DNA of 64,000 bases, from positions 1-64,000 of the IMG/VR virus record IMGVR_UViG_3300044797_000101, one strand, 5' to 3'. Positions 2,600 through 52,768 of the stretch are shown in pieces. How positions within the stretch are numbered: the stretch's first letter is position 1; each line of letters starts with the position of its first letter. The position numbers were made by a program, and so were the translations under genes. The DNA comes from a virus. The notes under the pieces were generated by a model. The model ran no database searches, was not told the origin of the DNA, and worked only from the letters and a program-made list of their open reading frames with translations.

Positions 2600-3367
2600 T
2601 TATCCTTTAAATAATCCAGTAATCCAATTAGGTACTTTCTGGCTTGTTTCTTTATTAAAATTTCGACGTTCATCCCACTCTTCATCTGTGATGTTATCAC
2701 GTTTTTCTTGCTCTTCTTTTTGTTCTAATTGTTTAAGCCAATCCATCCATTCTTCATCTGTTAATTCGTTTTCAGTTGGGATTGATTCTTCAACGTGCTC
2801 GTGTTCTAGATCCTCAAGCCACTGTTTATATTCTTCTGGGTTTAGATCTTGTTTCTCAAATGGATTTTTAATCTGTTTATGGACTTCTTTGGGCACATGG
2901 ACGATCTTTTTCTCTGGCTTCTCAGGAACCTGTTCGATCTTTGGCTCTACTACTGGCATTGGACGAACAGTCTGTTTTGGAGCCTTTTGAACGGGTACTG
3001 GACGACTTGTTCCGATATCTGTATCAGTGTCGCCGTAAGAATCAACCTCAACAGGTGAAAGATTAGGACCGCTAACAATTAAGGTACACGATTGATCGCC
3101 TGGATGCGAACGACAAAACAAGGGAGCATCGTACTCAGTTGTATCTAAAAAATTTTGTAAACTCCAAACCTGTCTATCAAGATCTTGACATTGACTATGG
3201 TGTGAACCGTTTGAATTCCAAGTGACCTGAGTATATCCGTTATTCAATAAATTTGTTAATATTGGACCAGTCATATCCTGGCGATGGTTGCCAGCTGCTT
3301 CTTTATTGAGACGGCAAATCCTCATTGCTTTTGTTGCTAGAATCGATAGCCAATTTTGATCTGTCAT
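2600..3367 (-). CDS. Hypothetical head-region protein with acidic C-terminal half
   Basis: 255 residues, immediately before the protease gene in transcription order. The first 30 residues end in LNKEAAG, a match to the Lys-Glu-Ala motif seen in the large virion proteins, so an N-terminal peptide may be removed. Residues about 30-115 form a Cys/His-containing domain with SHHSQCQDLD and APLFCRSHPGDQSC, which loosely recalls the C-terminal segment of MuF-type head morphogenesis proteins. The rest is Pro/Lys/Glu-rich with repeated DEEWMDWL and DEEWDERR segments. Function is not established. Confidence 0.75.
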   Translation of the reverse strand: MTDQNWLSILATKAMRICRLNKEAAGNHRQDMTGPILTNLLNNGYTQVTWNSNGSHHSQCQDLDRQVWSLQNFLDTTEYDAPLFCRSHPGDQSCTLIVSGPNLSPVEVDSYGDTDTDIGTSRPVPVQKAPKQTVRPMPVVEPKIEQVPEKPEKKIVHVPKEVHKQIKNPFEKQDLNPEEYKQWLEDLEHEHVEESIPTENELTDEEWMDWLKQLEQKEEQEKRDNITDEEWDERRNFNKETSQKVPNWITGLFKG

Positions 3368-3542
3368 ATCTCATTTCCAAAAATTCTAAATTACCCTTAG
3401 GTATCCATCCAGTGTTACAGTCACAAAATAGATCAGGTGAACCATAATATTCACCCATATTCTGAAAGCATTTCTTTAGACCGTGATGATCGTGTAATTC
3501 CCAGCAGTGATCACATGTACGACATTCATTTTCGTTTGACAT
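3303..3542 (-). CDS. Small zinc-knuckle protein, tail GNLEFLE
   Basis: 79 residues from the ATG at 3542. CRTCDHCWELHDHHGLKKC and a later CDC supply Cys/His ligands, followed by a tail motif GNLEFLEMRY. A 25-residue Ser/Asn-rich extension after the tail overlaps the start of the next gene by 65 bases, a larger overlap than usual here. Member of the DNLxYLE family described in the findings. Confidence 0.75.
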   Translation of the reverse strand: MSNENECRTCDHCWELHDHHGLKKCFQNMGEYYGSPDLFCDCNTGWIPKGNLEFLEMRYDRSKLAIDSSNKSNEDLPSQ

Positions 3543-3723
3543 ACTTGTGCTCAAGAAATTCAAGGTTATCCGACGGTAAAAACTCTGTGCATCTGCAACT
3601 TCCATTAACAACATATTGACACAAACAATTTTTATATTTAAAATCTGTATGCGATATATAAGAATGCTGACAGGTCCTGCATTTGTCAAAACTTCGTGGG
3701 TTCCTAATCTTTCGAATAGGCAT
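3526..3723 (-). CDS. Small zinc-knuckle protein, tail SDNLEFLE
   Basis: 65 residues. The arrangement is CRTCQHSYISH, then CLC and CRC, then FLPSDNLEFLEHKYVKRK at the extreme C-terminus. The basic N-terminus (MPIRKIRNPR) is unusual for the family. Overlaps the next family member by 17 bases, so the two form a local pair and are probably a duplication. Confidence 0.85.
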   Translation of the reverse strand: MPIRKIRNPRSFDKCRTCQHSYISHTDFKYKNCLCQYVVNGSCRCTEFLPSDNLEFLEHKYVKRK

Positions 3724-3980
3724 TACTTTGTCTCGTTTACACCATGCTTTTCTAGGATTGCTTTAGCAAATTTAATTTTATCGTAGCAATCATCCTTGAT
3801 TGTACGTTGGAGCTGCGTCAAATTTCGTTCAGAGATATCAGAGATTCTGATCAAATCTAAAACGCGACCCATATATTTAACCATTACAGCTTCAAACATA
3901 ACGGGAACATTCAGCTCGCCATCTTCTGAAATGTACGTTAGTTCTTTCTTTTCGCCTCTTTCATTACCCTCATGTTTCAT
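3723..3980 (-). CDS. Hypothetical protein
   Basis: 85 residues if it starts at the ATG at 3980, which follows GAGAGG at five bases. An upstream ATG at 3998 is also possible. Mostly helical and charged, with MFEAVMVKYMGRVLDLIRISDISERNLTQLQ in the middle. No family recognised. It is the first gene downstream of the repeated promoter-like element at 4022-4066. Confidence 0.65.
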   Translation of the reverse strand: MKHEGNERGEKKELTYISEDGELNVPVMFEAVMVKYMGRVLDLIRISDISERNLTQLQRTIKDDCYDKIKFAKAILEKHGVNETK

Positions 3981-4021
3981 AAATTCCTCTCTTTTCATAA
4001 CTTTTAGGATCAAAACTCTTT

Positions 4022-4066
4022 TAGAACGTAGTGCTCCTATTAATATAGGAAAATATTATACTTTTT
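4022..4066 (-). promoter_or_regulatory. Repeated promoter-like element, copy 1
   Basis: On the minus strand the element reads AAAAAGTATAATATTTTC, then CTATATTAATAGGAG, then CACTACGTTCTA. It matches copies at 17216-17262 and 33124-33171 almost base for base. It contains TATAAT and TATTAATA blocks and lies between two genes, about 25-40 bases before the next ATG. A promoter of a phage-specific class is the simplest reading. Confidence 0.7.
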
Positions 4067-4070
4067 AAAC

Positions 4071-4307
4071 TTATTTAGTGACGTCAAAACCAGAAGACTG
4101 AAGCCTATCAATTAATACATTTAGATCATCGGAACCATAATTATCCACACCGATGCTTTTTAGAGCAGAATGAAGCTGATCTACAGTGAGCTTCTTTGAT
4201 GGAACTTGCTTCAAGATCATCTGTGCTAAAAAGTTAGGATCTATAGTAAAACTTGCATTCTTAACTACTTGAATCTTGTTTGGTGAACCTTTTTTAGATA
4301 ATGCCAT
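4071..4307 (-). CDS. Hypothetical protein
   Basis: 78 residues. The N-terminus is basic, and the C-terminal two thirds look like a small helical domain (KLTVDQLHSALKSIGVDNYGSDD) with an EF-hand or SAP-like helical rhythm but no complete signature. It is the last gene before promoter-like copy 1. Function unknown. Confidence 0.7.
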   Translation of the reverse strand: MALSKKGSPNKIQVVKNASFTIDPNFLAQMILKQVPSKKLTVDQLHSALKSIGVDNYGSDDLNVLIDRLQSSGFDVTK

Positions 4308-4325
4308 GTTGACCTCTTATTATAA

Positions 4326-17283: not shown

Positions 17284-20200
17284 TTAGTCTTCGTTGGTTT
17301 GCTCAATTCCATCACTCATTGGCATGGCATTATAATAAGTGATATGATACTCGCCAATACCAAATGGATCGTTTCTATAAGCAGGATTCTCAAGTGTATC
17401 CAGATGAACTACTGCTCTTGAGTTGTCCTGAGGCCATCCTATGCCAGTTCCTGTATTCTCTGGTGAATCATGCATGCCGTAACTTGTATCTCTTTGATCA
17501 TGATTGACGTAAGGTTCTTCTGAAATATCATCATGCAGTTGATCTGTCTTCCATTCATCAATAAGATAGTCTGGCACAGAAGCACTCTGTGATCCAGCCT
17601 CTTTATTTAGGGAAGATACCTTAAACTCTTCTTCTTTAATTTCGTAATTACCTGCAGCAAATTCAGCTGGGAAACGTTCCTTACAAGTTTGAATAGCTTT
17701 AGCACGAGTCAAAGTACGAATAGCTAAACGACCTCCGACATACAAGGCATATTGTCTAGTAATAGCAGTTTTAGTAATCTCTTGTGTTAAATGATCAATA
17801 GCTGCTTCACGATTCTTAAGCATGTCAATTAGGATATGATTAGCTTCGCCTTCATTAGAGAACCATTCACCTTTTGGTTTTCCCATAAAACGACGTGGGT
17901 ATCCACCTGGAGAATTCTGATCGAGATTATCTTCATTAGAAATCTGAGGAGAATAGGTTACAGATGTTGGCTTGCTTGGTTCACCATCCTGAGTAAGTGA
18001 ATCCCAGGTTGTATTATGAGGCATGTGCTTTAGGTTTAAATCTGTAAAATCCTTAGAATATTCTAGCAATGTTTGATCTTCACCAAGTTCATTCTTCTCA
18101 ATGTCTTCTAATTCTTTATCATAAGACTCAATCTTACGAGTATCATTCTTAGAGAATAGATTTGAGAACATGCTGATAAATTGTCTCCAAACTTCTTTTG
18201 TACGAGGTTTTCCAGTTGTACAAGGTTCAGCAGAAGTTGTATCATCACTTACACTATCAGGATTAAGGGCTATTTCTTTATCATCTCCGCCCTCTGCTTC
18301 CTGCCATTTATTATCTGGAGCATTGAACAATGAAGGAAGAAAATCAGCTATCTTATCAATTTTTTCAAGTAAGAATGAACTTTCTTTATCAGTACCAACA
18401 CTAAAATATGTACGATTACCCTTATTTGGACTGAACACAACTGTATCTAGTTCAATCTCTTTACCCTCAAATTCATCAGCACCAACATACTCTTTTGCAG
18501 TATCACGCTTCATGTAGGCAATAGTAATATGAGGTTTATACTCATCCGAGACAAGACCTTCTGCACAATCAAATTTATCACAAATCATCTCGTTGGCTTT
18601 AGTAAGATCTTCACTAATAACCTCTATGGTAAGAACATCGAATGGAAGTTCAGGGGGTTGGAAATGACGAACCTTTCCAAGCTTAGCCTTAAAAGGTTTA
18701 GAATTATTAAAAGATCGACGAACATGCTTCCCGTCATCAGTCAAAAGACCATACTTAATGGTTACATGTGACTCAAGTTCTCTACCGAACTTGTCACCAT
18801 CTTTATATACGTCCTCATCAGGAACGTTATTAACGCCCCATGCAACAATCTCCTGAGCCAGTTCATGAGGAACCAAAGCCATAACGCAAGAATAATTTCC
18901 TTGCTTAATCTTCTTCGTTTGTGCTGTAATATCTTTCTTAGAAAATAGAGAAGCTGCGTTGCGCAGACGTTTAGCCTGGTAAATAGCCTTTCTAAGATTA
19001 GGGAATGGATCTTGAATATCCTGATAGTTACCCTCAAGATCATCAATCTCAACTCCACCACCAGTGTAATGTTGAGCTACAAAATTATCTAAGTAAGAAG
19101 GAAGATTATTTAAGTCAGCTACTTCCATCGCAAAGTCATAATCAGACTCAGTAGTAATACGAGTCCAGCCATCCCTAATCATAGCGGTAGCTTGATCTGA
19201 ATTATCTACACCCTCATAAGCATCGGGCATATTCTTTTGGACCCATCCTTCATGTCCTAAATTATTCTCAACAGGATATTCTTGTCCTCTAGGATCAATC
19301 CAATACTTATCAGCAAGTCGAGCAATTTTTAATGAAGCTGTTTTTGTAACAGGAATCTCTTGAGCTACATTAAAGAAGTTAGATCCATCACGTTGTAATT
19401 TAGGATTGTCTCGGGCCTTGTCAAATACCCATGCCTGCAAGACTTTCATATTACCCTCATGAGACATATGTGGTGATTCTTTAGCCAATCCTTTTAAATA
19501 TTGTGGATACGATTTCTGTAGTATCCTAATAGCCATCTTGCCAAGCATCGATTGATAAGAGGCATCCCATAAACTACGTTTATCATGTTTCTTTAGGTTA
19601 TTAAATACAGGATTAAGGATTGGCATGGAAGCTAAATTCGTATAGATAGAATTAGGAGTTTGCTGTTTCAACATTGATTCAAATCCTGATGCGAGCTGTT
19701 CCCCAAGCCAATCCTCATCAGGAATTAAAGCATCCTCATTGGGCGCAACTAAAACTACACCACCCTCTGGTCCACCGGATATGTGAGAAATATCACTAGA
19801 TCCAACCATATTAGCTCCAAGAGCATATATGAGGGCATAACTTAAATCTTTGGTCAGATAAGCACGACCAGCTAAAGGAGATTGATTTGCTCTTCCAGTT
19901 TCCAAAGGAGCCATGACATAACCATCTTTGGCAATCTGCCTAATTGAGTCACCTGATCCACCGTGATAGTAGGCATCGATAGCGGTTACATAAAGAGAGG
20001 CTTTCTTCTCTGATTTTTCAACCTGCTTTAACACGTTATCCCAATTATCAAATCTAATAGCATGGTCATCTATGTAAAATTTTGCAAATGGTTTCTCACC
20101 TTCAAAGATAGAATCATAGGGAAGATCATGTTTATCAAGATATTCACGGACCTTATCCACGCCAGCGCCTTCATCAGCTCTGCACGAGTAGATTATGACA

Positions 20201-33815: not shown

Positions 33816-33963
33816 CGTGTTTCTCCTTTTTGCTTAAGACGAACTCTAAATACTCTAAATTGTCAGACGGTTTGCAATCTTCAATTCCACCCCATTCAGC
33901 AACATGTCGATTATCTGGAAGAAATGGAACACCACATCTACAATAGCTTTTGTACTTTTTCAT
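33787..33963 (-). CDS. Small protein, tail SDNLEYLE
   Basis: 58 residues. A reduced zinc site (CRCGVPFLPDNRH, one later Cys), then CKPSDNLEYLEFVLSKKEKH. The C-terminus runs 29 bases into the ClpP-like gene downstream. Confidence 0.8.
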   Translation of the reverse strand: MKKYKSYCRCGVPFLPDNRHVAEWGGIEDCKPSDNLEYLEFVLSKKEKHDETSRPNTR

Positions 33964-38010: not shown

Positions 38011-38467
38011 TATTCTTATCCTCGCTTTTATTGTATGCTTCTTCAACGATCTCAAGCCCATCAAGATCTTCTTTTTTCGTATGATCTAAACATGCGGTAT
38101 ACAACCAACCATGTCCGCGTATCGCACCTAGCTTGCCACATTGTTCACAAATAGTAGCTGTTTCCTCTTCCCAAGCTTCAACAAGGTTGTGCATCTCTTC
38201 TGTTCCTGATGATAGATACCAACGACCTGTACCATATTTTTCTTTAAGTTGAGAAGTTCTATAGTATCCATATTCGTGTGCTTCTGGGTCTTTCTCAATA
38301 GCAGCTTTAATAAGCGGTTCAAGCTTCTCTGCGGTCTTTCTAATAGAAGGTTCCCAACCATCGCTACATTCAAATCCAAACATAGACCAAGGTTCTTTAC
38401 CAGTTGGATTGCGCGCAAATGTCAACGGAAAATCTTTTACTAATGCTTCGTCTAATTTATGTTTCAT
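38003..38467 (-). CDS. Conserved phage protein with zinc ribbon
   Basis: 154 residues. FGFECSDGWEPSIRKTAEKLE followed by QLKEKYGTGRWYLS and CEQCGKLG...CLDH is an arrangement seen in uncharacterised proteins of many phages and prophages. The CxxC and later Cys/His probably bind zinc. Confidence 0.75.
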   Translation of the reverse strand: MKHKLDEALVKDFPLTFARNPTGKEPWSMFGFECSDGWEPSIRKTAEKLEPLIKAAIEKDPEAHEYGYYRTSQLKEKYGTGRWYLSSGTEEMHNLVEAWEEETATICEQCGKLGAIRGHGWLYTACLDHTKKEDLDGLEIVEEAYNKSEDKNNE

Positions 38468-38913
38468 AATTTCATCAAGTGACTTATAATAAGTTTTCCA
38501 TTGAGGTGATCAGCTTCATGTTGAACAATGCGTGCATCAAATCCTGTAAATTCTAAATTAACTTTTTCACCGTTAAGTCGTTGACACTCAACACGAACAC
38601 CAAGATAACGAGGAACATTCACATTCGTACCTGGGCAACTTAAGCAACCTTCTGTCAATGTGTCCACCTCTTTACTATACCCTGTTATTATAAGATTCGC
38701 AACTACTAAAATTTTAGATTTGTTTTCTATGTATAAAGCTGCAAGATTCTTATTTAGTCCAATTTGATTTGCTGCAAGCCCAATACCTTTATAAGCAAGC
38801 ATTGTTTCAATCATATCACCAGCAATGTTATCTAGTCCAGTAAAATCAGTAACAAGATCAACTTTCTTATTTAAAATTGGTTCTATATATAACCTAACTG
38901 GTTTTACGCTCAC
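38464..38913 (-). CDS. def: Peptide deformylase
   Basis: 149 residues from a GTG at 38913, six bases after GGAGG. All three family motifs are present: GIGLAANQIG (43-52), EGCLS (88-92, metal Cys90) and QHEADH (131-136, metal His and catalytic Glu). It removes the N-formyl group from nascent proteins and is known in marine phages. Here it would support early processing of phage proteins. Confidence 0.95.
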   Translation of the reverse strand: MSVKPVRLYIEPILNKKVDLVTDFTGLDNIAGDMIETMLAYKGIGLAANQIGLNKNLAALYIENKSKILVVANLIITGYSKEVDTLTEGCLSCPGTNVNVPRYLGVRVECQRLNGEKVNLEFTGFDARIVQHEADHLNGKLIISHLMKL

Positions 38914-39220
38914 TCAATGCCTCCAAGTACTTAAGATTGTCTACCTTAAAAATCTTACACTGACAATCACGACATTTACTGTACTGTGCTCTTAATTTCT
39001 CTGCTTCTTGAAATGCAGCTTCATACGTATAATATTGCTGCTGATCACGATCCATAACATGATAACCAACGACACCCATCTTGTCCGGATGACGGACTAC
39101 AGTTATACCCTTCTGGCTCTCAAGCTTAAGCAATAATTCATGTGATGAAGTATCTTCATGATATCTGTGAAGATATTCTGCATGATTACATGTGCACATC
39201 TTTTTAACAGATTCGTTCAT
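38894..39220 (-). CDS. Zinc-knuckle protein, tail VDNLKYLE
   Basis: 108 residues from the ATG at 39220, a long family member. CTCNHAEYLH opens the knuckle. An inserted domain of about 60 residues (VVRHPDKMGVVGYHVMDRD...YEAAFQEAEKLRA) follows, then CRDCQCKIFKVDNLKYLEALSERKTS. The insert splits the two halves of the zinc site. Confidence 0.85.
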   Translation of the reverse strand: MNESVKKMCTCNHAEYLHRYHEDTSSHELLLKLESQKGITVVRHPDKMGVVGYHVMDRDQQQYYTYEAAFQEAEKLRAQYSKCRDCQCKIFKVDNLKYLEALSERKTS

Positions 39221-39404
39221 TTCTATCAAGCCATTCAATAAATTCAAGATTATCCATTGGTTTAAACTTCTTACACTTACACTTCCCATTATTCTTATCT
39301 AGCATTATACGAACAACAAGATATGTTTCTGCATCAATAGCACCTGATGGATGATCAAGCCAAAGACATCCACAACGACTACAATGCTTGTTGTCCTTTT
39401 TCAT
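39204..39404 (-). CDS. Zinc-knuckle protein, tail MDNLEFIE
   Basis: 66 residues. CSRCGCLWLDHPSG, then CKCKKFKPMDNLEFIEWLDRNERIC. Overlaps neighbours on both sides by 17-26 bases. Confidence 0.87.
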   Translation of the reverse strand: MKKDNKHCSRCGCLWLDHPSGAIDAETYLVVRIMLDKNNGKCKCKKFKPMDNLEFIEWLDRNERIC

Positions 39405-39582
39405 TTTGACTCTTAATCTCCAACCACTTTAAATTATCTACTGGGGTATAAGTCGTACACCAAAAGCCTGGTTTATGAACATGCTCTCTACAATAATAGA
39501 CATCTTCTTTAGAACCTTTAAAAGAGAGTTTTGCATGATCATCAAAAGAGCATCCACAAATACATGGACGTTCTGTGTTCAT
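39379..39582 (-). CDS. Zinc-knuckle protein, tail VDNLKWLE
   Basis: 67 residues. CICGCSFDDHAKL, CREHVHKPGFWC, then YTPVDNLKWLEIKSQNEK. The tail Tyr is replaced by Trp, keeping an aromatic. Confidence 0.87.
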   Translation of the reverse strand: MNTERPCICGCSFDDHAKLSFKGSKEDVYYCREHVHKPGFWCTTYTPVDNLKWLEIKSQNEKGQQAL

Positions 39583-39980
39583 ATCTGATGCTCATCCTTG
39601 TATATAATGATATTTTCCATGTATTCTAAATTATCTAAAACATCGAATATAAGTACTAATCCTATCTCTTTAACAATACCATCATCTACAATATCATAAT
39701 CAGTTATCTGACTAAATCTAATAAATTTCTTTTCAGTTCCAAACATCACAGAAGCAACAAGCCCTTGGATTCGTAATGGATGTTCTTTTACAGCCTCAAA
39801 TAGAGGATTATCCCATCCATCAATCAATATAGAACCACTTGCTCGTGTATTCTTTACTTCTTCTTCATCCCAGTCATAATCTAAAAGAATATGAGCAGTC
39901 TCAATTATAAATTTACCTTTTGTTACTGGATCAAATCCAATGATGGGAGATTTAAAAGAATTTTGATCAATGGTTGCCAT
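39579..39980 (-). CDS. Hypothetical protein, tail LDNLEYME
   Basis: 133 residues with no Cys pairs. A beta-rich domain (IIGFDPVTKGKFIIETAHILL...FIRFSQITDYDIVDDG) ends in LDNLEYMENIIIYKDEHQI. The tail is again attached to a non-zinc domain. Confidence 0.8.
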   Translation of the reverse strand: MATIDQNSFKSPIIGFDPVTKGKFIIETAHILLDYDWDEEEVKNTRASGSILIDGWDNPLFEAVKEHPLRIQGLVASVMFGTEKKFIRFSQITDYDIVDDGIVKEIGLVLIFDVLDNLEYMENIIIYKDEHQI

Positions 39981-41481: not shown

Positions 41482-41867
41482 ATTAATCCTTCATCCTTTA
41501 TATCATCATCTAACTCAATATTATAGCTACCCTGTTCATATGTAGATTCTATTCCAGCAGCTTTAAGAATTCCCATCATTTTCTCTGCACCAAGCGGATT
41601 TGCTGTATGAAACTTAATCACTTGTGGACGTATTGATTCAGGCATAACAGAGAGATAAAAGGCAACTGGTTGGAATGTTTCCTGTCCGATCTGAAGGCGC
41701 CGTTTAACACTGTCCGATAATTCACCTGAAAAGGGAACACAAATATCGTGGTCAATGCTAATCTCTTCTACATAACCCGTAGACAGAAGACGGATAGCTT
41801 CAGTGTTATTACGAGCAAGTGTCCAACCTTCTGGACAACGGCGAAGATCATCAACGTATAGTTTCAT
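41478..41867 (-). CDS. Cyclic-phosphate-processing receiver-like domain protein
   Basis: 129 residues from the ATG at 41867. The start MKLYVDDLRRCPEGWTLARN and VEEISIDHDI match the stand-alone receiver-like family predicted to act on cyclic phosphates in RNA-repair and nucleotide-processing gene sets. The paired Asp (VDD and DHD) mimic a receiver active site without the phosphotransfer context. The family is known from phages. The substrate is unproven. Relevant neighbours in the window: RNA ligase and Thg1. Confidence 0.75.
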   Translation of the reverse strand: MKLYVDDLRRCPEGWTLARNNTEAIRLLSTGYVEEISIDHDICVPFSGELSDSVKRRLQIGQETFQPVAFYLSVMPESIRPQVIKFHTANPLGAEKMMGILKAAGIESTYEQGSYNIELDDDIKDEGLI

Positions 41868-42042
41868 CTGCTTTTTTCTCCAAGTACTCAAGATTAGTGG
41901 CTGGAACAAATTCAACAGCTGTGTAATATTCACCAGGTGTCTCTGTTGGGCACAGCATCATACTGCCAAGATTAAGATGTTCTTTCTCAAATCGTAGACA
42001 GTTAATACAGTGTCTATTTATGTTTTCTGGCATAACCTTCAA
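41851..42042 (-). CDS. Zinc-knuckle protein, tail ATNLEYLE
   Basis: 63 residues. CINCLRFEKEHLNLG replaces the usual CxCGH. One more Cys (MMLCP), then FVPATNLEYLEKKADETIR. The tail Asp is Thr. Confidence 0.83.
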   Translation of the reverse strand: MKVMPENINRHCINCLRFEKEHLNLGSMMLCPTETPGEYYTAVEFVPATNLEYLEKKADETIR

Positions 42043-42300: not shown

Positions 42301-42682
42301 AAAATCCCCTTTTTCTAACACCCTTTAATAAGGCATCAATCTCTTTAAAATACGTTCGTGGTGAAATAGAAGTTAAACTATTATTTGAATACCTGCTCAC
42401 GTAATCTAATTCACCAAATGATACTTCAAGTTTTGTTTCACCTTGAACTTCAAATGTATCTGAAATTACATGCTCACCAGCAGCAGCAACTATACGCTTG
42501 TAGATCCAACCCCTACGACGTCTACCAAAAAAATAACTATTTCGATATTTAAAGCATTTCCCAACTAACGCTTGCGCTTTAGGAACAGATTCGAGGATAC
42601 GAATCTTATCCCTAATTTCTGAAATATGCTTTTCATATGCAATGGAAAGCTCTTTTAGATTCTTGATAACATCATCGCTCAT
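42278..42682 (-). CDS. Hypothetical protein
   Basis: 134 residues. N-terminal coiled coil (NLKELSIAYEKHISEIRDKIRI), then a basic beta segment (FKYRNSYFFGRRRRGWIYKRIV) and a very basic C-terminus (GVRKRGFYGKKKKR). May bind nucleic acid, inferred from charge only. Confidence 0.7.
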   Translation of the reverse strand: MSDDVIKNLKELSIAYEKHISEIRDKIRILESVPKAQALVGKCFKYRNSYFFGRRRRGWIYKRIVAAAGEHVISDTFEVQGETKLEVSFGELDYVSRYSNNSLTSISPRTYFKEIDALLKGVRKRGFYGKKKKR

Positions 42683-42884
42683 TCAACTGCTCCTTACGTT
42701 TTGCACACCACTCTAAATACTCTAGATTATCAGAGGGACTGCATTCTTCTTTACATGCTGATTCACTCTGAGTACCTGTTGGTCCAACTATATCATTTGG
42801 AATCCAATGATATCCTTGTACTCTATGCGCACCACATACACGGCAAGGACTTTTAAATTCCCTTGCATCCATCCACCAAATCAT
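42672..42884 (-). CDS. Zinc-knuckle protein, tail SDNLEYLE
   Basis: 70 residues if started at MIWWM (42884), 66 from the next Met. CRVCGAHRVQGYH, later CKEEC, then SPSDNLEYLEWCAKRKEQLNER. Confidence 0.85.
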   Translation of the reverse strand: MIWWMDAREFKSPCRVCGAHRVQGYHWIPNDIVGPTGTQSESACKEECSPSDNLEYLEWCAKRKEQLNER

Positions 42885-43648: not shown

Positions 43649-44302
43649 TTATTTTTCGTCAAAGTACGTGTTGCCTGTTCCCTTCTTGTGATCTCTAGCT
43701 GGGGATACAATACGATCAACGAAACCATACTCCAGAGCCTGTTGAGAGGAGAAGTAGTTGTTACGTTCACCATCAGCAAGAACCTTATCAAATGGTTGAC
43801 CTGTATGATCAGCCAAAATCTGAGCTAATGAATTCTTATGGTAAACCATTTCACGTGCTTCGATCTCAATATCAGTGGCTTGACCAGAGATACCACCGCC
43901 ATGGATCAAGGGTTGGTGCATCATGATACGAGCATGGGGCATCGCTGAACGCATCCCTTTTGTTCCAGCAGCCAACAAAACTAACCCGAATGACATGGCA
44001 TGACCCATAACTAACGTAGCAACTGGAGACTTCAAATGCTGCATGGTATCATAAATCGCTAATCCTGCTAACACGCTTCCACCTGGGCAGTTGATATACA
44101 TCTGAATGGGTTTATTATTGTCCAAGGATTCTAAATATAGAAGCTGGGCAATCAATAAATTGCTACCTTCCGTTGTAATATCTTCACCGCCAACCATTAC
44201 AATACGATCTGATAACAGTTTGGAAAAGATATCATAGGATATTGTACCGTTAGCGGACTTCTCATAGATACTCGGAACGATTGCCATGTTAGGTTTAATC
44301 AT
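43649..44302 (-). CDS. clpP: ATP-dependent Clp protease proteolytic subunit homologue
   Basis: 217 residues, standard ClpP length. INCPGGSV, GHAMSFGLVLLAAG (catalytic Ser104), ARIMMHQP (His129) and GFVDRI supply the triad region. QATDIEIEAREM is the typical handle helix. Closer to bacterial ClpP than the copy at 33189. Could act with a host ClpA/ClpX, or as a phage-specific chamber with the second copy. Confidence 0.93.
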   Translation of the reverse strand: MIKPNMAIVPSIYEKSANGTISYDIFSKLLSDRIVMVGGEDITTEGSNLLIAQLLYLESLDNNKPIQMYINCPGGSVLAGLAIYDTMQHLKSPVATLVMGHAMSFGLVLLAAGTKGMRSAMPHARIMMHQPLIHGGGISGQATDIEIEAREMVYHKNSLAQILADHTGQPFDKVLADGERNNYFSSQQALEYGFVDRIVSPARDHKKGTGNTYFDEK

Positions 44303-44311
44303 GATTCTCCT

Positions 44312-44494
44312 TTATTTCACTTGTGCTTCTAGCCATTTTAAATTATCCCTCTTAAACTGCTTACAATGCTTCCTGCATTTTGGTTCCAATAATCCATAAG
44401 CCCAACACTCAGGTCCGTGACGACCTTTTGGATGCTCACACGCAACACACGGCTCATTGTCAAAACTCAGTTGCTTTATAGTCATGATAGGCAT
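44312..44494 (-). CDS. Zinc-knuckle protein, tail RDNLKWLE
   Basis: 60 residues. CVACEHPKGRHG, C...CRKHCKQFKRDNLKWLEAQVK. Overlaps the previous gene by 35 bases. Confidence 0.86.
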   Translation of the reverse strand: MPIMTIKQLSFDNEPCVACEHPKGRHGPECWAYGLLEPKCRKHCKQFKRDNLKWLEAQVK

Positions 44495-44594
44495 TCGCCG
44501 TACACTTTAAGCAAGAATCCTCATAGTCATGAGGGAGCAATCTTTCATGGTCTTCTCTTCGATGACCGCATTCACACAGCAATTCTTTACTCAT
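44460..44594 (-). CDS. Zinc-knuckle protein without tail
   Basis: 44 residues. CECGHRREDHERLLP...CLKC is the family knuckle, but the protein ends DYKATEF with no tail. It may be a truncated member. Confidence 0.7.
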   Translation of the reverse strand: MSKELLCECGHRREDHERLLPHDYEDSCLKCTANAYHDYKATEF

Positions 44595-44800
44595 ATTTTT
44601 GACTCCAAATATTTCAAATTATCAATCGGTGTATATTGTTCACACTTTCCAACCCTACATTTCTCGCAATATCCATAAATAGTAACACGTGTGCCTTTTT
44701 CATTAATATCTTTTTTATCCCATATTGAAATATCTTTGCCACTATACTGATAGCGATAATGTTTACTTTTCGTATGTTTACAAGTACAAATTCTACTCAT
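44591..44800 (-). CDS. Zinc-knuckle protein, tail IDNLKYLE
   Basis: 69 residues. CTCKHTKSKHYRYQ, a 30-residue insert, CEKCRVGKCEQYTPIDNLKYLESKI. The tail is at the extreme C-terminus with only three residues after it. Confidence 0.87.
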   Translation of the reverse strand: MSRICTCKHTKSKHYRYQYSGKDISIWDKKDINEKGTRVTIYGYCEKCRVGKCEQYTPIDNLKYLESKI

Positions 44801-45851
44801 TGTATTTTAACAGGAAGTCAGGATTGATACATTTGAAACTCAATCGACCTCGCAGCTCCTCTTCGTATTCATTGATCAATGGACGAAACACCACGCCTTC
44901 ACGGTGGACGTCTTTATTCAATAGGCTTTTACCTTTAGAATACTCAACAAGCTCATCAACCGTTCCAGGCAACACGTAGGAATCAGAGATGAATGGAACG
45001 TGAGTAAGTCCAAGATATTCAACGATCTGGCTAAGATCAGCATAGTTAAAGTGAAGACCCGTATCAATATCATAGGCATTGAAAATGTGATAACCAAGCT
45101 TATCTAGTTTGTACTTATTTCCTTGAACTCCAGGACCAAGCAACTCACCTTGAAGAGCGATGTTACGACGGAAACTACGCAACTTATTCTCAAGATCTAG
45201 CTCACGAGCAACCTTCCAGAATGAATTGCCCTCTGTTTCCTTAAGGTCTAGGTTACGAGAACACACACCAAATTCATCACCTTTAAAATAGGTTGTCATG
45301 CTTGAACCGTCAACCTTCTCAGTGACATAGAACTTCTTAAGCTGATGCTTAAATAGCAACTCGGGAACAGCTTGAATGCGCATCTCATCTGTCTTTGACA
45401 AGAATGAGGGAAAATTTCCCTTAACCGTTCCAGATAATTGAGCTGGAACATAAGGTTCGTATTTCTCAACTTCAAGCATGGCTGTAACATCATCGCCTTC
45501 ACTATAATCAAACTTTAGACTGCAATCAGAAATGATTGAGGCATCTGGGATAGCAGCATGAACCTTTTGAGGAATTGGAAGAATAGACAAAGGAAGACAA
45601 AGACCTTGAGATACCTGACCACGTAGCTTAATCGTTTTAATCCTAAAACTAGATTTACGAAGGAACTCAACCTCAGGACTTTCCTTAAGAATTGAATCAA
45701 TCTCAAAGTATACAACCAGGTCGCCGATATTGAATTCGCCCTTCTTGGCTACAACTTTCCAGCCAAGAACAGTTAAAACCTCGATAGCATCGGCTCCAGG
45801 AATAGGTTGAATATCCAATACCTTTTGAATAGATGCAAGCTTGCGTTCCAT
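44793..45851 (-). CDS. RNA ligase (DraRnl/Rnl5-type)
   Basis: 352 residues. The N-terminal OB-like domain (SIQKVLDIQPIPGADAIEV, WKVVAKKGEFNIGDLVVYFE) is diagnostic for the Deinococcus Rnl group. The nucleotidyltransferase domain has YVTEKVDGSSMTTY with adenylated Lys179, CSRN, and downstream motifs (NIALQGELLGPGVQGNKY, HREGVVFRP). It seals nicked RNA ends. With Thg1 and the receiver-like protein it suggests RNA repair. Confidence 0.92.
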   Translation of the reverse strand: MERKLASIQKVLDIQPIPGADAIEVLTVLGWKVVAKKGEFNIGDLVVYFEIDSILKESPEVEFLRKSSFRIKTIKLRGQVSQGLCLPLSILPIPQKVHAAIPDASIISDCSLKFDYSEGDDVTAMLEVEKYEPYVPAQLSGTVKGNFPSFLSKTDEMRIQAVPELLFKHQLKKFYVTEKVDGSSMTTYFKGDEFGVCSRNLDLKETEGNSFWKVARELDLENKLRSFRRNIALQGELLGPGVQGNKYKLDKLGYHIFNAYDIDTGLHFNYADLSQIVEYLGLTHVPFISDSYVLPGTVDELVEYSKGKSLLNKDVHREGVVFRPLINEYEEELRGRLSFKCINPDFLLKYNE

Positions 45852-46715: not shown

Positions 46716-47462
46716 TTAATCTCCTATATTTACGTGATGATTTATAAATTCCCTATCTTGACTGAAAACAGGTATATTCTTCTCAACATACCAACCATCA
46801 ACACCCTTAATTACGCAAGCACCACGTTTGTTAATTACAGGAAGATCATTCCAATTGATCCCCTTCTCTTTAAACAGCAGTTCTTGCACTTCATCCGTGC
46901 ACAGACCATGTAACTGCTTCGGACTGAATTGAGACTGTCCTACGCTGTTTATGGAGTTTCTAGTGGCATCCTGTTGTCGCCACAGGAAGTAGTTGCACAC
47001 TTCAGCGTGAGGAAGAATAAACGCACGAGAATCAAAGTGAGCCATAGGCTTAAACTTATCTTCTTGACGATACTCGAACATCCGTAAGTTTGCTCTCTCA
47101 GCTTCATAATTAAAAGCTGCAGTGGCAATGCTTGCTGAGATACTAACAAGCTTTTGAAGATTCTTATCATAAGGCGCTTGGGTTGTCAATGTATCATAAT
47201 CTGTAATGAACAAGCTGATCTCATCTGATTGCCAATAAGCAAGCTTCACGCCTTGTATACCTTCACAAAGTGCTTGGGTTGTTTTAAGCATGAGCTCCAT
47301 GAAGTCTGGATCAAATGGACGAATAAACCCACGTGTGTATGTATGGAAAGCCTTACCATCAATCCTAAGAATCAATGGAAGTCTTCCAGACAAATGGAAA
47401 CGATAGGCATTCTCGTAGTTTTTCATACGATCACCAAGGCTATCTTTTTCAGGCTTGCTCAT
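46716..47462 (-). CDS. Thg1-family tRNA-His guanylyltransferase-like enzyme
   Basis: 248 residues. DRMKNYE, RIDGKAFHTYTRGF (metal Asp35) and YWQSDEISLFITD (Asp80, Glu81) are the Thg1/TLP catalytic motifs. FDSRAFILP and CNYFLWRQQDATRNS are typical of the fold. Thg1-like proteins add nucleotides in the 3' to 5' direction to tRNA 5' ends and can repair truncated tRNAs. Lies between dCMP deaminase and the small zinc proteins, with RNA ligase two kilobases away. Confidence 0.93.
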   Translation of the reverse strand: MSKPEKDSLGDRMKNYENAYRFHLSGRLPLILRIDGKAFHTYTRGFIRPFDPDFMELMLKTTQALCEGIQGVKLAYWQSDEISLFITDYDTLTTQAPYDKNLQKLVSISASIATAAFNYEAERANLRMFEYRQEDKFKPMAHFDSRAFILPHAEVCNYFLWRQQDATRNSINSVGQSQFSPKQLHGLCTDEVQELLFKEKGINWNDLPVINKRGACVIKGVDGWYVEKNIPVFSQDREFINHHVNIGD

Positions 47463-47661
47463 TTAGAAGCTCCTGTTTCTTTTTCTTCAATTCCATAAAA
47501 GCTAGGTTGTCCCCATCAAAATCATGAAACCTATCATCTGTATAACCAGGTTCATCAATCTGACATCCAGTACAAACTCCAGTACCTGTTGAAATATTAA
47601 CGTAATGTCGCTCGGCTAAATGCCTACAGACCTTACAAGGAAAATCCTTAGCGACTGCCAT
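47449..47661 (-). CDS. Zinc-knuckle protein, tail GDNLAFME
   Basis: 70 residues from the ATG at 47661 (MAVAKDF). CKVCRHLAERHYV, CTGC, then FDGDNLAFMELKKKKQELLNEQA. Overlaps the Thg1 gene by 14 bases. Confidence 0.83.
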   Translation of the reverse strand: MAVAKDFPCKVCRHLAERHYVNISTGTGVCTGCQIDEPGYTDDRFHDFDGDNLAFMELKKKKQELLNEQA

Positions 47662-47824
47662 AATATTCCTTATCCATTTGTTCTGCATACAGCTGATCAT
47701 CTAGGATAAACACATTACACGGACAAGCAGCTTTTGGACGGTATATATCCTCACGCTGACAGATAAGCCCGAATTGTCCGTGTTCTTTATCTAAATGACC
47801 ACAGCTACAAATTAATTCTACCAT
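47648..47824 (-). CDS. Zinc-knuckle protein with degenerate tail
   Basis: 58 residues. CSCGHLDKEHGQFGLIC, CPCNVFILDDQLYAEQM. The tail position holds DDQLYAE, apparently a diverged DNLxYLE. Confidence 0.75.
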   Translation of the reverse strand: MVELICSCGHLDKEHGQFGLICQREDIYRPKAACPCNVFILDDQLYAEQMDKEYYGSR

Positions 47825-48099
47825 GAATCTTTATCCTGTTCACGGATTTTTATCTCGGCTTGCTCAGCCTTAAGTTCAAGATATTCTAAATTGTCCATTG
47901 GTTGATAATCAAGGCATCCGCACTTAGTTGAGCTCACACTGAATTGTCCTTGCATATATGAATCACAAGGAACCATCTCAAGGATCTTTATAAATGATTG
48001 AGTAATGCCGCCTTGTTCAATACGAAGATAGATTGCATGATGACTAACCATATGTCCGCATTTACGACACATCGCATCACTTTTAGGATAGTCTAACAT
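47818..48099 (-). CDS. Zinc-knuckle protein, tail MDNLEYLE
   Basis: 93 residues. CRKCGHMVSHHAIY, a 40-residue insert with one Cys, CGCLDYQPMDNLEYLELKAEQAEIKIREQ. The post-tail helix is longer than usual. Confidence 0.87.
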   Translation of the reverse strand: MLDYPKSDAMCRKCGHMVSHHAIYLRIEQGGITQSFIKILEMVPCDSYMQGQFSVSSTKCGCLDYQPMDNLEYLELKAEQAEIKIREQDKDSW

Positions 48100-48365
48100 T
48101 CAGGTCTCTCATTCCATTCTTTTAGAATGGGAAATGTTTCAAATATATCTGCTCCAGCACGAACAGCCTTTACACGATCTAACTCTTCAAGGTATTTTAG
48201 ATTATCAACTGGTACATTCTTTAAAACAAACTTAGCCCTAGCTTCAAGCCTATTTAGAAATTCTTCTTTATCATCTGTAATAATGTATTTTTGTTTAGGA
48301 GGTTTAGGTCCTTTAAGCATTTCAGCAATCTTTTCAATATTCCAGCCCCAATCAGTTGTATCCAT
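48093..48365 (-). CDS. DNLKYLE protein without zinc knuckle
   Basis: 90 residues with no Cys until the last residue. Helical N-terminal region, then NVPVDNLKYLEELDRVKAVRAG and a further 25 residues, so the motif is internal here. It is followed by GADIFETFPILKEWNERPEC. Confidence 0.82.
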   Translation of the reverse strand: MDTTDWGWNIEKIAEMLKGPKPPKQKYIITDDKEEFLNRLEARAKFVLKNVPVDNLKYLEELDRVKAVRAGADIFETFPILKEWNERPEC

Positions 48366-48856
48366 TATTTAGACTTCTTTTCTTTCTCTTTACTCTTAGT
48401 TTCAAGGATACGAAGGTTATCTAGTTTCTTTTTCATATCGTCCCAGACTTCCCTAAAATTCTGTTCCCATTTAAACTCAAACGCTTTAGTATTAGCCCAA
48501 GCTTCGAAAGCATCCATATTTTTAATTATGGGAAAGATGCTTTGCCCAATAGCAAGTGTAATTGCGTTACCACGACGTCGTCCATTGAGACCTGCAAGCT
48601 TTAATTCATTGACACCGTAAACTCCATCGCTCTTAATACCAAAGTTATAATCGCACCAGAGTGTTGTGCCACCACCTAAGTCAAAGACGGCGTAGTCATT
48701 ACCATCATCAAATATGATCTTAAACTTAAACGGTGCATCTTGAAGATCAATCAGCTTAGCATACTCTTTACTATGGAATCTACGATGGTGCCACAAGAAT
48801 CCACCGAGGATTGTTGGAAATGTTACGAAAACTCCGTACAAAAAATGATGGCTCAT
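48365..48856 (-). CDS. Hypothetical protein with membrane-like N-terminus and LDNLRILE tail
   Basis: 163 residues. N-terminal hydrophobic stretch (FLYGVFVTFPTILGGFLWHH), a beta/alpha core with an FKIIFDDGNDYAVFDLGGGTTLW segment, then KKKLDNLRILETKSKEKEKK at the end. DLGGGTT recalls phosphate-loop motifs of the actin-like fold, but the rest does not match. Confidence 0.7.
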   Translation of the reverse strand: MSHHFLYGVFVTFPTILGGFLWHHRRFHSKEYAKLIDLQDAPFKFKIIFDDGNDYAVFDLGGGTTLWCDYNFGIKSDGVYGVNELKLAGLNGRRRGNAITLAIGQSIFPIIKNMDAFEAWANTKAFEFKWEQNFREVWDDMKKKLDNLRILETKSKEKEKKSK

Positions 48857-49491: not shown

Positions 49492-49807
49492 TGTCTCGCT
49501 CCTCTTTCTCAATCGATCTAATTTCTAATAATTCTAAATTCGTAAAGATACCACCATTTTTTCGTTTGTAATCTTGATATTGTGTTATCGCTGCAGACAA
49601 TGGTAAGATCTCTAAATGTGCGTCAGAATAATCGTAACAAGAACACCCAGACTCATACACTACGACATAACGTCCGTCGCTTAATTGAAAGACGTGCATC
49701 TCATCGACGCCATCTGAGTTAGGATTTGAAAAGCAACCAAGCTCCAACGTTGCTTTAGCACCGTCAACGTTACCAGCCCACTGATCATGCCAACAATCAA
49801 GCGACAT
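49460..49807 (-). CDS. Hypothetical protein with TNLELLE motif and C-terminal CxxC
   Basis: 115 residues. A small beta domain (VDEMHVFQLSDGRYVVVYESGCSCYDY) is followed by a helix and FTNLELLEIRSIEKEERDNEPRCKNC. The tail is weakly conserved, and the usual order is reversed, with the Cys pair after it. Confidence 0.72.
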   Translation of the reverse strand: MSLDCWHDQWAGNVDGAKATLELGCFSNPNSDGVDEMHVFQLSDGRYVVVYESGCSCYDYSDAHLEILPLSAAITQYQDYKRKNGGIFTNLELLEIRSIEKEERDNEPRCKNCNS

Positions 49808-49988
49808 TCTTTTTCTCCAATGACTTCTTTTCTAAATACTCTAAATTACCAACATATGGATGCTTAAAAAAACTATTTTTTCTCTTATTCACACCAAACC
49901 TATAACACTCAGAACACCACACTGTCGTAGGATCATGATGCGCTACTGAGTGCTCTTCTCGTTTATGACCACAGGTAAAACAAATCAT
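49797..49988 (-). CDS. Zinc-knuckle protein, tail VGNLEYLE
   Basis: 63 residues. CFTCGHKREEHSVAHH, CSEC, then FFKHPYVGNLEYLEKKSLEKKNVA. Confidence 0.86.
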   Translation of the reverse strand: MICFTCGHKREEHSVAHHDPTTVWCSECYRFGVNKRKNSFFKHPYVGNLEYLEKKSLEKKNVA

Positions 49989-50648: not shown

Positions 50649-50828
50649 CTAACTAAGTATTGTGCTTTCTACGGTGTCCCTGAAGCTCTCATGTATTAGG
50701 ATCGTATCACAGTCCAAACATAATTCGATCCCGTTATGAGGTTGCTTCGTTGGATTTGGGAAGCTGTAAAAGAATAATCGGTTTTCTAATTTAGCCTGCT
50801 TGAGTATTGCTAGGGTTTTCTCGTTCAT
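50649..50828 (-). CDS. Small protein with CLDC
   Basis: 59 residues. NRLFFYSFPNPTKQPHNGIELCLDCDTILIHESFRD. One CxxC only. The stop lies four bases before the inverted repeat. Function unknown. Confidence 0.65.
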   Translation of the reverse strand: MNEKTLAILKQAKLENRLFFYSFPNPTKQPHNGIELCLDCDTILIHESFRDTVESTILS

Positions 50829-51397
50829 ATTAGTCTTCCAACACTGTATTTAATTAAATGACAGTTCATGCAAACGACGTTGCATTTCTGAAGCTCAGTA
50901 AGTAAGGTTGATGTTTCGCCAAGGATCATCTTAGAGAGCGTTTTATGTCTCGAAGGTGTTTGCCTATAGGAAAACGTCATAGCCACTCTAGGAAATGATC
51001 CCTTACATTCTAGGCACGCTTGAGAGATAGCTTCAGTGACAATCTTCGTATTAATCTCACGAAGAGCATCCTCAACCTGTTTCTGTTCAATGCGACGCTT
51101 CGTGCGTTCCTTACGTGAAACAACCATCTCTAAATATTTTAGGCGATCACCCTTCTTGAGCATGTACATCTCAGTTGTCGATGTACCTTCAGGAATTTTA
51201 GATGAGACCTCATATTTCCCACGACCAGCAGGACGTAAGAATCCACCGATCAACATCATGCTACGATGACCATCAACGGTTCCAGGGGAAATACCTTTGA
51301 CCCTAGCAAATTGTTGAAGATCAGACCGTTTGATAACGTGTCCGATCTCGTGCTTATTTATAAAATCAACGACTTGTTTCCAATAGCTATCGCTCAT
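50825..51397 (-). CDS. Winged-helix/zinc protein with DRLKYLE motif
   Basis: 190 residues. The N-terminal 75 residues look like a winged helix (IGHVIKRSDLQQFARVKGI...GRGKYEVSSKIP). Then LKKGDRLKYLEMVVSRKERTKRR, a basic helix, and a C-terminal CLECKGSFP...VVCMNCH, an HNH-like zinc site that appears incomplete. DNA binding is likely. The YLE motif here is internal. Confidence 0.72.
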   Translation of the reverse strand: MSDSYWKQVVDFINKHEIGHVIKRSDLQQFARVKGISPGTVDGHRSMMLIGGFLRPAGRGKYEVSSKIPEGTSTTEMYMLKKGDRLKYLEMVVSRKERTKRRIEQKQVEDALREINTKIVTEAISQACLECKGSFPRVAMTFSYRQTPSRHKTLSKMILGETSTLLTELQKCNVVCMNCHLIKYSVGRLI

Positions 51398-51593
51398 CGG
51401 CTTTCATCTCCAAGTACTTAAGATTATCCACTGGTGCATAACCTGGACACTTGCGACACGAGCATTCTCCAAAGCCTATCTTCTGATTGTCCATGCCAAA
51501 ATCCCTAACGTTAATATGGAACTTAGCATTATGCGGACAATAGCGACAAGGCTCTTCCGCTAAATACTTAGGATAATCATACCAGCGTTTCAT
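51387..51593 (-). CDS. Zinc-knuckle protein, tail VDNLKYLE (array member 8)
   Basis: 68 residues. N-terminal Tyr-rich segment, CRYCPHNAKFHINV, CSCRKCPGYAPVDNLKYLEMKADER. Last of eight tandem family members in transcription order. Confidence 0.88.
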   Translation of the reverse strand: MKRWYDYPKYLAEEPCRYCPHNAKFHINVRDFGMDNQKIGFGECSCRKCPGYAPVDNLKYLEMKADER

Positions 51594-51778
51594 TGATTTG
51601 TAAACCCCCCGTCTGAAAGTTTTTCAATAAATAAAAGATTATCAGGTCTAAAGACCTGACATGGACAAATGCTACCATTCTTCTCAACAAAGCCAGCACA
51701 CTGAAACAACCAATCACCATTAAAATTATGTATCTTTTGAGCATGCCCACACTTGCATGGGTACTCTCTACTTAACAT
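51590..51778 (-). CDS. Zinc-knuckle protein, tail PDNLLFIE (array member 7)
   Basis: 62 residues. CKCGHAQKIHNFNG, CAGF, CPCQVFRPDNLLFIEKLSDGGFTNQ. Confidence 0.88.
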   Translation of the reverse strand: MLSREYPCKCGHAQKIHNFNGDWLFQCAGFVEKNGSICPCQVFRPDNLLFIEKLSDGGFTNQ

Positions 51779-51977
51779 TGTTTAACAACTCCAACGTCTT
51801 TAGGTTGTCTGGTTCAAAATTTGGGCACATGCAAATCTTTTCATTTGTAGTGGGATTTGGATAATCCTTATACTCAAAACAGATACGACCATTGATCCCA
51901 TATCCCTTGATAGCATCCTCAACGGTTGAGTGCATCTTGTTTCGATGACCACACTTACATATGAAGTTATCGTTCAC
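51768..51977 (-). CDS. Zinc-knuckle protein, tail PDNLKTLE (array member 6)
   Basis: 69 residues from a GTG at 51977. CKCGHRNKMHSTVE, C, CMCPNFEPDNLKTLELLNNVK. Overlaps both neighbours by 11 bases. Confidence 0.86.
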   Translation of the reverse strand: MNDNFICKCGHRNKMHSTVEDAIKGYGINGRICFEYKDYPNPTTNEKICMCPNFEPDNLKTLELLNNVK

Positions 51978-52125
51978 TCTGCATCTCCAGGTATCTAAGA
52001 TTGTCTTGCACATAATCATTACACCTGCAAATTGGTTTACCACAGAACTTAAATACGTTAGTTTCCTCCATAGCATGACATCCTCTCGGATGACCACAGC
52101 TACAGGGATAATCGTTATCTATCAT
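51967..52125 (-). CDS. Zinc-knuckle protein, tail QDNLRYLE (array member 5)
   Basis: 52 residues, one of the shortest complete members: CSCGHPRGCHAMEE, C, CRCNDYVQDNLRYLEMQSER. Confidence 0.86.
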   Translation of the reverse strand: MIDNDYPCSCGHPRGCHAMEETNVFKFCGKPICRCNDYVQDNLRYLEMQSER

Positions 52126-52312
52126 TATTAAGCCTATCCTCTAAGTATCTTAGGTTGTCACCTTTAAATTTAGTACAAATGCTTGCAGCCACCATAAATC
52201 CATTCATGCTTGCGTAAAATCCTTTGTCAGCCCAACAGATTGCGCAATGAAGACCAATGATATGATCTTCGTAATTATGATTGCAGTTTTTGCACGGATA
52301 CAGTAGGTCCAA
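52115..52312 (-). CDS. Zinc-knuckle protein, tail GDNLRYLE (array member 4)
   Basis: 65 residues, apparently from a TTG at 52312 because no ATG or GTG precedes the knuckle. CKNCNHNYEDHIIGLHCAIC, C, FKGDNLRYLEDRLNNDR. The start codon is less certain than the gene. Confidence 0.82.
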   Translation of the reverse strand: MDLLYPCKNCNHNYEDHIIGLHCAICWADKGFYASMNGFMVAASICTKFKGDNLRYLEDRLNNDR

Positions 52313-52457
52313 TTGCCTTCTCCAGTGTCAACAGATTGTCTGGTTTAAACTCATCACAAAGGCACATGAAGCATCCAGCATATTGCCACGCTATGCTCTC
52401 TTTAAAGTTATGATTGAACTCCTCGTGCGAGCACTTACAAATGCGTACGATCTGCAC
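52275..52457 (-). CDS. Zinc-knuckle protein, tail PDNLLTLE (array member 3)
   Basis: 60 residues from a GTG at 52457, seven bases after GGAG. CKCSHEEFNHNFK, C, CLCDEFKPDNLLTLEKAIGPTVS. Confidence 0.85.
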   Translation of the reverse strand: MQIVRICKCSHEEFNHNFKESIAWQYAGCFMCLCDEFKPDNLLTLEKAIGPTVSVQKLQS

Positions 52458-52596
52458 TTGAATACTCCAATGATTTGAGGTTGTTCATAAAGAACTTAGT
52501 GCAAGTACAAAAGCCACATTCTAATACTAGATCTTGTCTATAATAATGATGCATCCAATCAGGATGGTTGCAATCACACACTCTTGTTATTAACAC
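52435..52596 (-). CDS. Zinc-knuckle protein, tail MNNLKSLE (array member 2)
   Basis: 53 residues from a GTG at 52596. CDCNHPDWMHHYY, CGFCTCTKFFMNNLKSLEYSSADRTHL. The tail is diverged (Asn for Asp, Ser for Tyr). Confidence 0.82.
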   Translation of the reverse strand: MLITRVCDCNHPDWMHHYYRQDLVLECGFCTCTKFFMNNLKSLEYSSADRTHL

Positions 52597-52768
52597 TTAA
52601 TGCCTCAAGGTATTTAAGATTGTCTAATTTAAAATTATGAGAGGAAGCTTTAAATCGTAACGAGAATCGAGGATACTTACCAGCATTCCAACAGGCAAGA
52701 CAACCACTTGCTCCGTGGCGATCGTGTTCATGACCGCAAATACAGATATTAGATTCGGAGTGACTCAA
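52574..52768 (-). CDS. Zinc-knuckle protein, tail LDNLKYLE (array member 1)
   Basis: 64 residues from a TTG at 52768. CICGHEHDRHGASGCLAC, a basic insert, FKLDNLKYLEALSVNNKSV. First of the tandem eight in transcription order. Confidence 0.82.
   Translation of the reverse strand: MSHSESNICICGHEHDRHGASGCLACWNAGKYPRFSLRFKASSHNFKLDNLKYLEALSVNNKSV

Follow-up and report, generated by a model that had tools for sequence, protein, structure and literature searches.

The window analysed here comprises 64,000 nucleotides, bases 1 to 64000 of the 119,809-base IMG/VR phage record IMGVR_UViG_3300044797_000101 (G000; further records are likewise given by number), and raises the question of why so many of its small proteins end in nearly the same short peptide, DNLxYLE. 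The tail was searched for by regular expression and then with a ten-column profile (score 11); the strict tail was defined as [DN]-N-L-x-[YF]-L-E, open reading frames (ORFs) in the window were also accepted by [DN]-N-L-x-[YFW]-[LIM]-E or close variants, and proteins of at most 250 residues were counted as small. By both methods, 26 to 28 ORFs between 3.3 and 52.8 kilobases (kb) carried the tail near the C-terminus, all of them on the minus strand, where nearly all genes of the record lie, and none on the plus strand. The first-pass annotation had counted about thirty such proteins in this interval, which is thereby confirmed, and the feature reaches far past it: about 35 further tails were found beyond the window, at 65 to 104 kb of the record, including a run of about 30 genes at 65 to 76 kb in which almost every gene had one. 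The usual architecture was a zinc knuckle followed by the tail, CxC[GNKS]Hx4H - variable insert - C - CxC-x2-[FY]-x-x-DNLxYLE. The carriers in the window, with possible and doubtful cases marked, were as follows.

3303-3689, minus strand, zinc-knuckle protein, GNLEFLE; orthologues in G014, G015 and G025
3526-3723, minus strand, zinc-knuckle protein, DNLEFLE; overlaps the start of 3303-3689; orthologues of 61-72% in several phages
21509-21748, minus strand, canonical CxCGHx4H..C..CxC protein, DNLKYLE; AlphaFold2 query
21696-21917, minus strand, zinc-knuckle protein, DNLATLE
22278-22454, minus strand, zinc-knuckle protein, ENLAFLE
33787-33963, minus strand, DNLEYLE protein; its end overlaps the ClpP gene start; orthologues adjoin ClpP in G005 and lie near ClpP in G006
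34307-34579, minus strand, non-zinc carrier, DNLKYLE
35279-35554, minus strand, non-zinc carrier, DNLTYLE; tail retained in the G001 orthologue
38894-39289, minus strand, zinc-knuckle protein, DNLKYLE
39204-39404, minus strand, zinc-knuckle protein, DNLEFIE
39379-39582, minus strand, zinc-knuckle protein, DNLKWLE
39579-39980, minus strand, non-zinc beta-barrel carrier, DNLEYME; tail retained in the G001 and G006 orthologues
41851-42042, minus strand, possible carrier, TNLEYLE; ORF not picked by the gene caller
42672-42884, minus strand, zinc-knuckle protein, DNLEYLE
44312-44494, minus strand, zinc-knuckle protein, DNLKWLE
44591-44800, minus strand, zinc-knuckle protein, DNLKYLE
47449-47700, minus strand, zinc-knuckle protein, DNLAFME
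47818-48099, minus strand, zinc-knuckle protein, DNLEYLE
48093-48365, minus strand, non-zinc carrier, DNLKYLE, 30 residues ahead of the C-terminus
48365-48856, minus strand, possible non-zinc carrier, DNLRILE; no supporting relative
49797-49988, minus strand, zinc-knuckle protein, GNLEYLE
50825-51397, minus strand, HNH-endonuclease-like protein, internal DRLKYLE; doubtful, probably no carrier
51387-51593, minus strand, zinc-knuckle protein, DNLKYLE
51590-51778, minus strand, canonical zinc-knuckle protein, DNLLFIE
51768-52097, minus strand, zinc-knuckle protein, DNLKTLE
51967-52125, minus strand, zinc-knuckle protein, DNLRYLE
52115-52312, minus strand, zinc-knuckle protein, DNLRYLE
52275-52457, minus strand, zinc-knuckle protein, DNLLTLE
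52435-52596, minus strand, zinc-knuckle protein, NNLKSLE
52574-52768, minus strand, zinc-knuckle protein, DNLKYLE

Tail frequencies were far above those expected by chance. Strict tails were present in 44 of the 264 called genes of the full record, compared to 0.02 after shuffling and none in reversed sequences, and in 31/315, 10/117, 14/190, 10/110, 16/66 and 10/186 genes of six related records, where shuffling predicts at most 0.05. The profile search proposed by the first-pass annotation found the tail on 242 of 1,171 small proteins in 15 related records (0.67 when shuffled and 1 when reversed). About one-fifth of the small proteins of this clade carry the same short C-terminal peptide. In almost all carriers the tail lay within 25 residues of the C-terminus, and its N, L, L and E were at least 90% conserved, while the zinc part varied (CxCxHx4H or CxxC, with long inserts), in agreement with the earlier impression of a near-fixed tail behind a variable zinc part. 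Conservation was also apparent in a sample of 103 zinc-knuckle proteins that were not selected for the tail, of which 86 scored positive for the tail; in these 86, N was found in 81, L in 78, Y or F in 73, L in 83 and E in 82.

A recurrent peptide near gene ends, directly upstream of the next gene, might be a DNA or RNA signal, such as a ribosome site, promoter or recombination site, that is merely read as DNLxYLE. We compared the tail with the rest of the protein in 76 orthologue pairs of at least 50% identity. In the tail, amino acid identity was 86%, with a proportion of synonymous differences (pS) of 0.77, a proportion of nonsynonymous differences (pN) of 0.10 and a pN/pS ratio of 0.13; in the remainder, identity was 57%, pS 0.68, pN 0.29 and pN/pS 0.42. 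Synonymous sites were thus as variable in the tail as elsewhere, with pS no lower there. All six leucine codons and both codons of D, N, Y and E were in use, with entropies near background, and GGAG-type codons were not enriched. Selection acts on the amino acids of the tail, and the low tail pN/pS with free synonymous variation indicates that the genes are real and that the tail peptide is their most constrained part. A DNA-level element is contradicted by the codon data and was rejected as virtually excluded.

We then asked whether the tail might simply belong to the structure of a single zinc domain, the non-zinc carriers being spurious, which the first-pass annotation had named as the outcome that would overturn its idea of a short linear motif grafted onto many proteins. 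Zinc-knuckle proteins are indeed the majority of carriers, and CxC-x2-[FY] runs straight into the tail. However, among 103 small CxC[GNKS]Hx4H proteins picked irrespective of the tail, 80 had a clear and 6 a borderline tail and 17 had none, and several of the tail-less proteins retained the full ligand set and had look-alikes in other phages (G002:35130/G004:54202/G005:283/G007:70113 and G002:6503/G004:80583). One further knuckle (CxCGHx4H) without a tail occurred in a 1,017-residue protein (25001-28054) rich in CxxC pairs. Conversely, 28 carriers in 22 sequence clusters had no knuckle. Judged from sequence, these may represent about 15 to 20 distinct types rather than 22, because some may be decayed zinc proteins and the protein at 50825 is doubtful. 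Unrelated carriers retained the tail in orthologues: the barrel protein at 39579 and its two orthologues kept DNL-x-Y-x-E despite 37-45% overall identity. Clear non-zinc carriers also included two DUF6745-like proteins (weak Pfam match), and the tail-bearing protein at record positions 68827-69225 belongs to phrog_3972 (E = 3e-31), a known phage family; its homologues from Streptococcus and Lactococcus phages lack the tail at their ends. Since tail-less zinc proteins and tail-bearing non-zinc proteins were both found, the tail is separate from the zinc domain. The structural-part explanation fails in both directions, was rejected on this double dissociation and is very improbable; the first-pass interpretation is supported in part, as regards a grafted motif, its shared receptor that would recruit, localize or degrade the carriers being conjectural. 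As to the particular unrelated folds listed earlier, the claim held for the proteins at 34307, 35279, 39579 and 48093 (35279 and 39579 with tail-bearing orthologues), and that at 48365 is a possible carrier without a supporting relative. The supposed winged-helix carrier at 50825 resembled an HNH endonuclease, with DRLKYLE internal (residues 84-90 of 190), and its match to the tail is probably due to chance.

From these data we infer that a shared partner exists, and with somewhat better than even confidence, which does not extend to an identity of that partner with ClpP, we regard DNLxYLE as a portable C-terminal docking peptide for it. The tail would fold as a short helix starting at its Asp and be recognized by one shared partner, acting as an address by which many fast-changing small proteins are brought to one place or machine. 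The zinc-knuckle modules would presumably each grip a different target, and some 15 to 20 unrelated proteins would also be delivered. In an AlphaFold2 model of the protein at 21509 with 121 relatives, a C-terminal helix (residues 64-77) began just after the Asp, with a predicted local distance difference test score (pLDDT) of about 80 to 87; the model of the 39579 barrel, built with three sequences only, ended in a low-confidence helix (residues 117-131). The tail is thus predicted to form a C-terminal helix in both folds modelled, and helix capping alone would not seem to account for the invariant N and E. Foldseek returned no match for the zinc-protein model and only weak phage tail/baseplate-like barrels for the 39579 model.

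With the Asp numbered 1, tail positions 4 (E or K/R) and 8 (aromatic or polar) covaried (Fisher P = 5e-24, not corrected for relatedness), defining two tail types, DNLE-YLE-aromatic and DNL[K/R]-YLE-polar. The E type was associated with a Pro two residues ahead of the Asp and with CxxC or no knuckle, the K/R type with CxC. Covariation one helix turn apart, together with the amphipathic pattern of L3, L6 and Y10, would also fit self-association, in which tail helices pair and carriers form mixed oligomers without a separate receptor. However, the invariant polar N2 and E7 and the near-fixed Y5 would exceed the needs of a simple helix pair, and pairing would leave the need for a tail on unrelated proteins unexplained; we consider self-association quite unlikely.

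The distribution of the tail bears on whether its partner is encoded by the phage or by the host. Contigs were searched with a 14-base-specific DNA pattern for P[LMIVF]DNL[KE]YLE, with the backwards pattern as the control. Matches were obtained in nine stretches of seven IMG/VR contigs (1 to 28 tails each), in which the control gave none. All seven contigs share clade genes, as do two contigs from another pattern. Among the tail-bearing viral contigs checked, tail and knuckle are, by these sequence searches, confined to one phage clade. Among records with a portal match, the two nearest tail-less relatives of useful length, G032 (portal 51%, 124.9 kb) and G028 (portal 50%, 43.7 kb), had neither tail nor knuckle, and the profile detected the tail in 0 of their 162 proteins. 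Several short fragments with closer portals had no tails, as their length would predict. Neither tail nor knuckle was found in Bacillus phage G or virus Rctr197k, and phage LR745208 gave one match, to the knuckle only. A viral-contig search with the single protein at 52574-52768 yielded no relatives, its sequence being too divergent, and tblastn of one zinc-tail protein against 50,697 phage records yielded no match. Bacterial genomes gave five matches to the DNA pattern, of which the one readable ORF was an unrelated protein ending in the motif; these look like chance and were set aside. No family for the zinc-tail proteins was present in Pfam, PHROGs, NCBIfam or PDB, and at most 2 of 121 zinc-tail members matched any single Pfam or PHROG family (E ≥ 1.8e-4). 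Consistent with the initial statement that no description of the motif was known, no database family and no paper examined on the motif or on phage C-terminal tags describes the tail.

Since tail and knuckle are confined to the clade, a phage-encoded partner is likelier than a host partner, and the shared partner is probably phage encoded. A host polymerase, ribosome, protease or division protein that is bound or blocked by all carriers seems to us unlikely. The host is the usual target of large, variable sets of small phage proteins. Gp53 of phage SPO1 serves host ClpC as an adaptor-like protein (PMC6873191). However, no tail was found in phages outside the clade, though other phages infecting this host might exploit that site too, and the bacterial matches look like chance.

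Alternatively, the tail could be a capsid cargo tag that loads small proteins into the head for injection with the DNA and immediate action on the host. One short peptide on many proteins, leading to one shared partner, recalls the capsid-targeting signal of T4, which is N-terminal. It likewise recalls the C-terminal cargo peptides of encapsulins, described in PMC8346489 as a short signal that sorts proteins. The clade capsid protein is highly conserved (93-97%), the N-terminal part of the carrier at record positions 69188-69508 resembles the capsid protein C-terminus over about 25 residues (E = 0.001), and the 39579 carrier is weakly similar to tail/baseplate barrels. However, the outgroup G032 shares the capsid protein (65% identical) but not the tail, and two carriers (72302 in the record and 105055 in G004) are predicted to be membrane anchored, a misfit with packaging. 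Packaging thus appears an improbable function of the tail.

Returning to the docking-peptide reading with a phage-encoded partner, the following gene products were considered.

33189-33815, minus strand, phage ClpP-like protease ClpP1, leading candidate partner; Pfam ClpP E 9e-26
43649-44302, minus strand, second phage ClpP, ClpP2; Pfam ClpP E 2e-66; full-length match to ClpP structures
Record 107751-109148, CDC48/VCP-like AAA+ ATPase; best PDB matches are VCP-like ATPases

We ranked 150 conserved non-tail gene groups by their flanking tail genes, ClpP having been noted as a candidate beforehand. ClpP1 ranked first, with tail genes as 6 of its 8 immediate neighbours and 11 of 16 genes within two positions, compared to a mean tail-neighbour fraction of 0.12 for all non-tail genes (P of about 0.002 versus non-tail genes within 12 kb). 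The tail gene upstream of ClpP overlapped the ClpP start in G000, G005 and G001. ClpP1 retains Ser and His; the usual catalytic Asp is Asn in G001 and G005 and Asp in G006, and Asn occupies this position in both window ClpPs. The CDC48-like AAA+ protein was 56-73% identical in four other clade records; its outgroup match was weak and of a generic AAA kind only. Gene content by itself singled out no hub, since about 49 conserved non-tail genes lacked an outgroup homologue. We tentatively propose ClpP1, possibly with the CDC48-like AAA+ protein, as the partner, an assignment that is more likely wrong than right. If so, the small proteins would be adaptors for targeted unfolding or degradation in host take-over. 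Still more speculatively, the phage may own an address system, a phage version of multi-adaptor degradation, in which dozens of exchangeable zinc-knuckle adaptors, each with its own host or phage target, and other effectors dock via DNLxYLE on a phage ClpP/CDC48-like AAA+ complex or some other hub of the phage. Also of note, this one phage encodes two distinct ClpP-like proteases, and a clade-specific 436-residue metallophosphatase-like protein (record 109162) adjoins the CDC48-like gene.

Several points weigh against this interpretation. No partner for the tail was found, and the tail is without (L/I/V)-G-(F/L), the known motif by which Clp ATPases dock on ClpP. The ClpP link is one of gene order in four related records, in a region where tail genes are dense, and carries modest weight; a conserved 97-residue protein and then peptide deformylase ranked close behind ClpP in the same screen. 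The AlphaFold2 models were of modest confidence (mean pLDDT of 65.5 for 21509 and 66.8 for 39579), and the two tail types may reflect two partner classes, or merely two paralogue lineages.

Docking by short peptides is in itself an established principle; the point here is a phage-wide C-terminal tag. As a working analogy, the carriers resemble the Clp adaptors SspB, ClpS and SPO1 Gp53, which are small and combine a docking tail with a variable substrate-binding part, whereas the zinc-tail proteins have no family match and the tag is here on dozens of proteins. The docking motifs of known Clp adaptors differ from DNLxYLE. Bacillus phage G, a large phage and the closest named relative by portal (32%), shows a comparable lineage-specific multiplication of small zinc proteins, with about 35 zinc-ribbon copies, and jumbo phages may have ClpP, ClpS and MoxR-vWA pairs (PMC7824862). 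In contrast to the clade proteins, the gp32 zinc ribbon of phage G is of the CxxC...CxxxC type without a tail, and neither the tail pattern nor the profile of the family gave a match in that phage. The small Cys-rich NCBIfam family NF038206 (RGCVC) was matched weakly by 1 of 121 members (E = 0.0047) and by none of the other 120, and its description names no tail. Small phage proteins are mostly uncharacterized, and a tag on about one-fifth of them provides a handle on dozens at once; one partner found would make many uncharacterized genes interpretable. If that partner is a protease or unfoldase, this would be an example of a virus that turns plug-in adaptors on its host. The tail peptide could also serve as a ready-made orthogonal docking tag in protein engineering.

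Besides the tail genes, the window encodes a portal, terminase large subunit, trypsin-like protease, the two ClpP-like proteases, RNA ligase and Thg1, and the remaining record encodes PolA fused to a uracil-glycosylase domain, RecA, DnaB, NusG and AAA+ proteins. Individual genes were located as follows.

Record 89875 and 91055, MoxR/VWA pair
Record 98943-101531, DNA polymerase A with N-terminal uracil-DNA-glycosylase domain
Window 38464-38913, peptide deformylase
Window 44793-45851, RNA ligase
Window 46716-47462, Thg1-like enzyme
Record 106983-107324, PTH2-like peptidyl-tRNA hydrolase, by eye
Window 17284-21258, 1,324-residue protein with phosphoheptose-isomerase-like and 2'-5' RNA-ligase-like regions

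Together, the peptide deformylase, RNA ligase, Thg1-like and PTH2-like proteins are an uncommon RNA and protein maturation set. Genes for a branched-chain aminotransferase-like protein (66023-66946) and a patatin-like protein (73212-74117) were identified by eye inside the tail-gene run. Separated gene pieces, as by introns or inteins, were seen for the capsid gene of G001 (114031-116257) and the DNA polymerase gene of L141 (3992-7504).

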